DNA from: Motilimonas eburnea
Lineage (GTDB): Bacteria; Pseudomonadota; Gammaproteobacteria; Enterobacterales; CBDFNC01
Assembly: GCF_021295345.1 (NCBI RefSeq)
Contig: NZ_JAIMJB010000001.1
Span: 248,001 to 312,000 of the forward strand
Direction of reading: 5' to 3'
DNA: 64,000 nucleotides
The notes beneath the pieces were generated by a model, which had not been told where the DNA came from, did not search any database, and was given only the letters and a program-made list of their open reading frames with translations. Positions 5,960 through 35,534 of the stretch are shown here, piece after piece. Numbering within the stretch: position 1 is the stretch's first letter; each line of letters starts with the position of its first letter. The translations under genes and the position numbers were made by a program.

Positions 5960-6249
5960 GGGCCTGTTGACCTTTTGAGCTTGTTTTTGCAGCGATTTGT
6001 TGGGTATTTATACAAAACAATCGTTGTGGGCAGCATCTTTGTAGCATAGTCATCTATGTGAAAAGGCGCTAACGCAGTAGAAATGACCAACAAACGCTGT
6101 CCTTCGGATTCGGCTAAAAGCGTTTTGTGCGTCGTTGAGCAGTATTTACTTAGAATGCTAAGCTACACACTGCTCGCCTTGCTCAAAACGCTTTTAGACA
6201 GGGTGTCTCCCACTCGAACAAAAATTAACCGCGAAAGGTCAACAGGCCC
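5960..6249. repeat. MITE-like element, copy 1
   Basis: A 290-bp non-coding element with perfect 16-bp terminal inverted repeats (GGGCCTGTTGACCTTT at 5960-5975 and its complement at 6234-6249), preceded by TA. The inside is rich in inverted repeats: a 14-bp pair (6114-6127/6184-6197), a nested GAGCAGT/ACTGCTC pair (6137-6143/6169-6175) and a small GCATAG-TCAT-CTATGT hairpin (6044-6059). A second copy is at 35234-35534. It encodes no transposase; a 62-aa frame crossing its right end has no support. It fills most of the 480-bp gap before the transporter operon. Confidence 0.85.
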
Positions 6250-35233: not shown

Positions 35234-35534
35234 GGGCCTGTACCTTTGGAGATTGTTTTTGCAGCGATTTGTTGGATATTTATACAAAACAATCGTTGTG
35301 GGCAGCATCTTTGTGGCATAGCTACCTATGCGAAAAGGCGCTAACGCAGTAGAAATGACCAACAAACGCTGTCCTTTGGATTCGGCTAAAGCCCTTCGGG
35401 CGTAAGCATTCTACGCGTCGTTGAGCGGTATTTACTTAGAGTGCTAAGCTACACACCGCTCGCCTTGCCCAAAACGCTTTTAGACAGGGTGTCCCCTCTC
35501 GAACAAAAATTAACCACGAAAGGTCAACAGGCCC
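35234..35534. repeat. MITE-like element, copy 2
   Basis: 301 bp, clearly homologous to 5960-6249 across most of its length. Ends are GGGCCTGTACCTTT (a 2-nt deletion in the left repeat) and AAAGGTCAACAGGCCC, flanked by TA on both sides. The GAGCGGT/ACCGCTC stem (35423-35429/35455-35461) differs from copy 1 by a paired change. The left arm of the outer 14-bp stem is replaced by a segment with its own GCCC-TTC-GGGC hairpin near 35388. Lies between motY and its terminator. Confidence 0.85.

Follow-up and report, generated by a model that had tools for sequence, protein, structure and literature searches.

ERIC, an intergenic palindromic MITE of the Enterobacteriaceae and Vibrionaceae, is approximately 127 bp long, inserts at TA and keeps a conserved fold-back; we know of no transposase identified for it. 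IS5-family MITEs, associated with NF033580 transposases (DUF4096 and DDE_Tnp_1), are short and non-coding, with shared terminal inverted repeats (TIRs), a TA target and many intergenic copies, while in REPINs (paired REP hairpins moved by RAYT) the mobile unit consists of two inverted hairpins moved in trans. In PMC10969869, ERIC is listed as a MITE in Enterobacteriaceae and Vibrionaceae, and transcripts of the QMITEs of Coxiella are predicted to fold strongly. The window analysed here, a stretch of 64,000 nucleotides from Motilimonas eburnea (assembly GCF_021295345.1, contig NZ_JAIMJB010000001.1, positions 248,001 to 312,000), contains two copies of an element that shares traits with these systems (Table 1).

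Table 1. Positions of the two element copies and their parts in the window
Feature	Position	Strand	Remarks
MITE copy 1	5960..6249	+	full length, 290 bp; left flank CTA, right flank AAG (right TA lost)
Left TIR and P1 strand, copy 1	5960..5988	+	resembles transposase-side end of IS5-family element
Arm A hairpin, copy 1	5989..6100	+	CAGCGATTTGTTGG ... CCAACAAACGCTG
13-nt self-complementary module	6016..6028	+	AACAATCGTTGTG; present or absent among aligned copies
Mini hairpin CC-TTC-GG	6101..6108	+	separates the arms; GCCC-GAA-GGG in Vibrio
Arm B hairpin, copy 1	6110..6219	+	holds GAGCAGT/ACTGCTC; homologous to opposite-strand arm A
15-nt module	6197..6211	+	GACAGGGTGTCTCCC; present or absent among aligned copies
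Right TIR, copy 1	6221..6249	-	terminal inverted repeat
MITE copy 2	35234..35534	+	full length, 301 bp; TA on both sides
14-nt hairpin module, copy 2	35390..35403	+	AGCCCTTCGGGCGT; present or absent among aligned copies
Arm B tip, copy 2	35423..35461	+	holds GAGCGGT/ACCGCTC

The element family and its insertion sites

Both window copies belong to a family of about 41 full-length members (262–304 bp), found by searching the 4.59 Mb, 71-contig genome of M. eburnea. The copy number, the TIRs, the TA flanks and the empty orthologous sites described below uphold the first-pass annotation in its assignment of the two copies to a MITE family, and both copies are present with the stems it described. 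Its description of TIRs with TA at the ends holds for copy 2 and fails on the right side of copy 1, which reads CTA/GGGCC...GGCCC/AAGC, with TA at the left side only. The TIRs of the family read GGGYCTGTTGAYCTTT.. and are usually flanked by TA; in copy 2, the left TIR has a 2-bp deletion (GGGCCTGTACC). No open reading frames of at least 90 aa were listed inside either window copy, and coding capacity is absent.

In the fold predicted from single sequences, arm A, a very small hairpin and arm B follow one another inside the TIR stem. Searched with nhmmer, an arm A profile gives collinear matches to the other strand of arm B (best E 7e-8), and the interior of the element reads as one TIR-plus-hairpin half duplicated in inverted orientation and since diverged. 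Three modules, 13, 14 and 15 nt long and mostly self-complementary, vary in presence among the aligned copies. The internal loop of arm A (alignment columns 60–63 / 96–99) has tandem G-A/A-G mismatches, which are replaced by G-C/C-G in some Motilimonas copies. Full-length copies are accompanied by deletion derivatives. Internal deletions that retain both TIRs were seen in the 147-bp copy L041 (G000:C5:118954-119100), in which the left end is fused to arm B and the right end, and in two copies of the congener G003 (L078 on contig C38 and L076 on contig C56). Four other contigs of G003 (C23, C37, C55 and C34; L072–L075) stop approximately 70 nt into the element; recent identical copies are probably the cause of these assembly breaks, and copy numbers would thus be underestimates. 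At L132 (G223:C11:98520-98939), two nearby elements in the same orientation are apparently joined at CCCTAGGG.

The insertion target is TA within YTAR. Among the 55 genus copies first aligned, the commonest flanks were CTA/../TAG (17), CTA/../TAA (9), TTA/../TAA (6) and TTA/../TAG (6), and TA was present on both sides in 65 of 78 copies. Many copies are located at gene 3' ends, and just 2 of 25 classified copies lie in the intergenic region of divergent genes. Since the TIR starts with G, insertion at TA creates TAG, and in 6 of 30 copies (L006, L007, L010, L019, L022 and L027) this triplet ends an open reading frame at least about 200 codons long. Window copy 2 is inserted after the stop codon of an OmpA-like gene (35223) and ahead of the terminator hairpin of that gene (around 35554).

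The flanks of 18 insertion sites of the window genome were sought in three congeners, which gave 22 matched loci. Two of these, which correspond to the insertion site of window copy 2, are occupied; their elements (L051 and L052) lie in reverse orientation on the other side of the OmpA-like gene terminator, in the same convergent intergenic region, and are probably insertions independent of copy 2. No element was found within reach at 19 of the remaining 20 loci, and the last (L322) has only a 55-nt partial match near the locus end; both flanks align at 17 of these 20, the right flank being missing or just 43 nt long at L322, L334 and L327. Clean empty junctions were read for L006 and L010 (TTTAAATACTAG and GAATGGGATTAA, vs occupied TTTAAATATTA/../TAG and GAATGGGATTA/../TAAG), and in the other alignments the absence of the element is visible at junctions too diverged for base-by-base reading. 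Because the congeners have empty orthologous sites, the element has moved.

Within the order, 97 of 395 genomes have homologues, representing 24 of 115 genera, among them Vibrio, Alishewanella, Shewanella, Psychromonas, Algicola, Grimontia, Pseudoalteromonas and Catenovulum, and many are full-length at approximately 70% identity. A class-wide sample of 369 genomes gave no matches outside the order, and phages and IMG/VR gave none for the MITE as its carriers. When exact element sequences were sought in papers, the only matches were two unrelated insect papers.

A full-length IS with the same termini was searched for and found. A scan for the TIR pattern returned six IMG/VR contigs, two of which carry both ends 880 bp apart, enclosing a single open reading frame of 252–253 aa whose product is an IS5-family transposase (NF033580, E 5e-83; DUF4096 and DDE_Tnp_1). 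Both ends of these 880-bp copies carry GGGYSTGTTGAYCTTT and TA flanks, and the left end of the MITE matches the transposase-side end of the IS over about 29 nt. M. cestriensis (G001) has two IS5-family copies, and matching TIRs and TA flanks were present in the IS relatives wherever both ends were located. The shared termini suggest that the MITE is mobilised by this IS5-family transposase. Against this, relatives of the transposase (E ≤ 1e-60) occur in 23 of the 395 genomes of the order, vs 97 with the MITE, and none was found at this threshold in the window genome, so that the partner is often missing. Other candidates in the window genome were rejected: IS630 with no PF13358 match, and the PF01609 proteins, whose retrieved loci (L085–L089 and L095–L098) all lack this transposase. 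No autonomous partner was found at other TIR singletons of that genome.

Pairing, covariation and wobble

The two window copies differ by paired changes. The tip stem of arm B reads GAGCAGT/ACTGCTC in copy 1 (6137–6143 / 6169–6175) and GAGCGGT/ACCGCTC in copy 2 (35423–35429 / 35455–35461), and a second hairpin reads GCATAG/CTATGT and GCATAG/CTATGC, respectively. By themselves, two copies say nothing about selection. Across the 41 copies of the genome and about 140 from other records, the Watson–Crick fraction of the named pairs is 0.84, vs 0.27–0.32 when partners are slid by 1–3 columns. Covariation was assessed with our own R-scape-like implementation, not R-scape itself, combining a G-test with average product correction against a phylogeny-aware null of alignments in which the inferred substitutions were redistributed along the tree; the tested structure was averaged from single-sequence predictions and not fitted to covariation. 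With 50 sequences, 22 of 110 pairs were significant at E<0.05 and the best 13 of 33,930 pairs were all structural; with 90 sequences, 18 of 107 pairs were significant and the best 15 were all structural. The paired changes are real and selected. That they are no accident, as first proposed from the two copies, is confirmed by significant covariation across many copies and by pairing far above the slid-partner control.

RNA stems tolerate G-U intermediates and hardly ever A-C. In RNase P RNA from the same order, used as a control with a fold obtained by averaging single-sequence predictions in nearly the same way (pair threshold 0.35, vs 0.25 for the element), changes from Watson–Crick pairs to G-T and to A-C stand at 52:1. 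The corresponding ratios in the element are 52:37 for arm A, 37:66 for arm B and 32:24 for P1, and the two arms differ from each other (permutation p=0.011). This lack of a preference for G-T over A-C makes a single-strand structured RNA unlikely, and it is unlikely that pairing is kept as one RNA strand; DNA hairpins, a cruciform or functions on both strands agree with the pattern of changes. A Y-shaped single RNA was dropped after comparison with the RNase P control. The transcribed structured RNA envisaged in the first-pass annotation thus finds no backing, G-T being about equal to A-C in one arm and the order reversed in the other. Its interpretation holds only in part, and its alternative, a fold recognised in transposition, would fit better than RNA.

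Proposed mechanism and alternative explanations

Based on these observations, we propose, with a probability of about 0.6, that the element is an IS5-mobilised MITE in which selection for propagation acts on the DNA fold-back arms. The hypothetical mechanism comprises several steps in which (i) an IS5-family DDE transposase would act in trans, recognising the MITE termini; (ii) the MITE would insert at TA within YTAR; (iii) the two inverted TIR-plus-hairpin halves would fold back into two long arms; (iv) pairing would be kept at the DNA level; (v) in the course of replication, or within the transposition complex, hairpins or a cruciform may form by snap-back of one or both strands; and (vi) copies with good arms would transpose and inserted copies would drift. 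The snap-back and the link between arms and transposition are the presumed parts of this scheme.

Insertions shared between species sit less well with it. The comparison covers 16 such sites (e.g. L232/L274, L214/L218 and L051/L052), with species recurring among the pairs; the sites were detected through their similarity to the element, which favours conserved copies. The element has diverged there by 1.9% (82/4260), 4–5 times less than noncoding flanks (7.5%, 192/2570) and coding flanks (10%, 1240/12363; 'coding' by open reading frame length only), as passively drifting copies should not. The remaining differences at these sites mostly break pairs, and most of the shared copies are reciprocal best matches. 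The low divergence possibly reflects in-place conservation, ascertainment or conversion among copies.

A more tentative reading is that of a two-armed DNA hairpin device in which each TIR has its own snap-back arm, the two lying on opposite strands; these arms would be an active cis requirement for IS5-type transposition or would bind a host factor through which inserted copies stay unusually constant. If true, selection would be maintaining, across an order, a DNA fold whose sequence can vary.

It is unlikely that the element is a passive MITE whose complementarity is mechanical, generated by inverted duplication, template switching between quasi-palindrome arms or inter-copy recombination, its fold being under no selection. 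The arms are indeed inverted homologues, a wobble preference is absent and pair-breaking changes are common within the genome, but the pairing in each arm lasts across 24 genera despite changing stem sequence, and compensations concentrate on internal branches. Compensated and uncompensated changes number 72:119 on internal vs 74:335 on terminal branches (odds ratio 2.7, p=4e-7; 184 distinct copies) and, on short branches, 19:71 vs 5:100 (p=7e-4), a contrast that depends on a tree built by parsimony from short sequences that may recombine and on a site-independent, randomly resolved reconstruction; this unbiased version was used since a reconstruction favouring Watson–Crick states overstates the contrast. 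Pairing is retained in lineages that go on to spread and lost in copies once inserted, a pattern that a role of the fold in propagation would predict. The double changes seen on short branches affect isolated, scattered pairs instead of adjacent ones (8 of 59 are next to another), evidence that template switching is not their main source.

Similarly unlikely is that copies are kept in place as a service to the host, such as 3'-end processing, termination, insulation or chromosome architecture. Such a role would account for the low divergence of shared-site elements, most of them mutual best matches, and for the scarcity of copies between divergent genes; however, the tested sites of the window genome are empty in congeners, copies within a genome are only 86–98% identical, changes at shared sites mostly break pairs, and the search by similarity biases the shared set towards conserved copies. 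Another unlikely candidate is a regulatory or processed ncRNA carried by the MITE and selected as an RNA fold, which would suit the strong covariation, conserved internal loops, stable predicted fold, many copies near gene 3' ends and a copy 2 that is probably co-transcribed, but which is set against the missing G-U preference with opposite signs in the arms and the lack of any Rfam family matching the element, the wobble result strongly disfavouring only one-strand RNA, as both-strand RNA would also give equal G-T and A-C.

Covariation is usually taken as proof of functional RNA, and this element combines strong covariation with the absence of a G-U signature. The family therefore offers a test of whether selection can act on DNA fold-back structure, and is a caution for RNA-discovery pipelines. 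The MITE and its IS5 relative also form a defined pair, from marine Gammaproteobacteria, for addressing the question of whether MITE palindromes aid transposition, which is usually just assumed.

Comparison with described systems

The element also differs from each of the systems named at the outset. From ERIC, set against it here by description, it differs in length and probably in sequence. The QMITEs of Coxiella are likewise MITEs with a strong predicted fold, but they have other termini and 7–9 bp direct repeats, and PMC10969869 does not describe covariation across genera for them. REPINs lack IS5-type TIRs and TA duplication and are moved by a Y1 transposase, whereas the present element has TIRs, TA flanks and an IS5-family DDE partner. 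In contrast to other IS5-family MITEs, its interior consists of two inverted homologous hairpin arms with significant covariation rather than a deleted IS, and the family spans an order instead of a species or genus.
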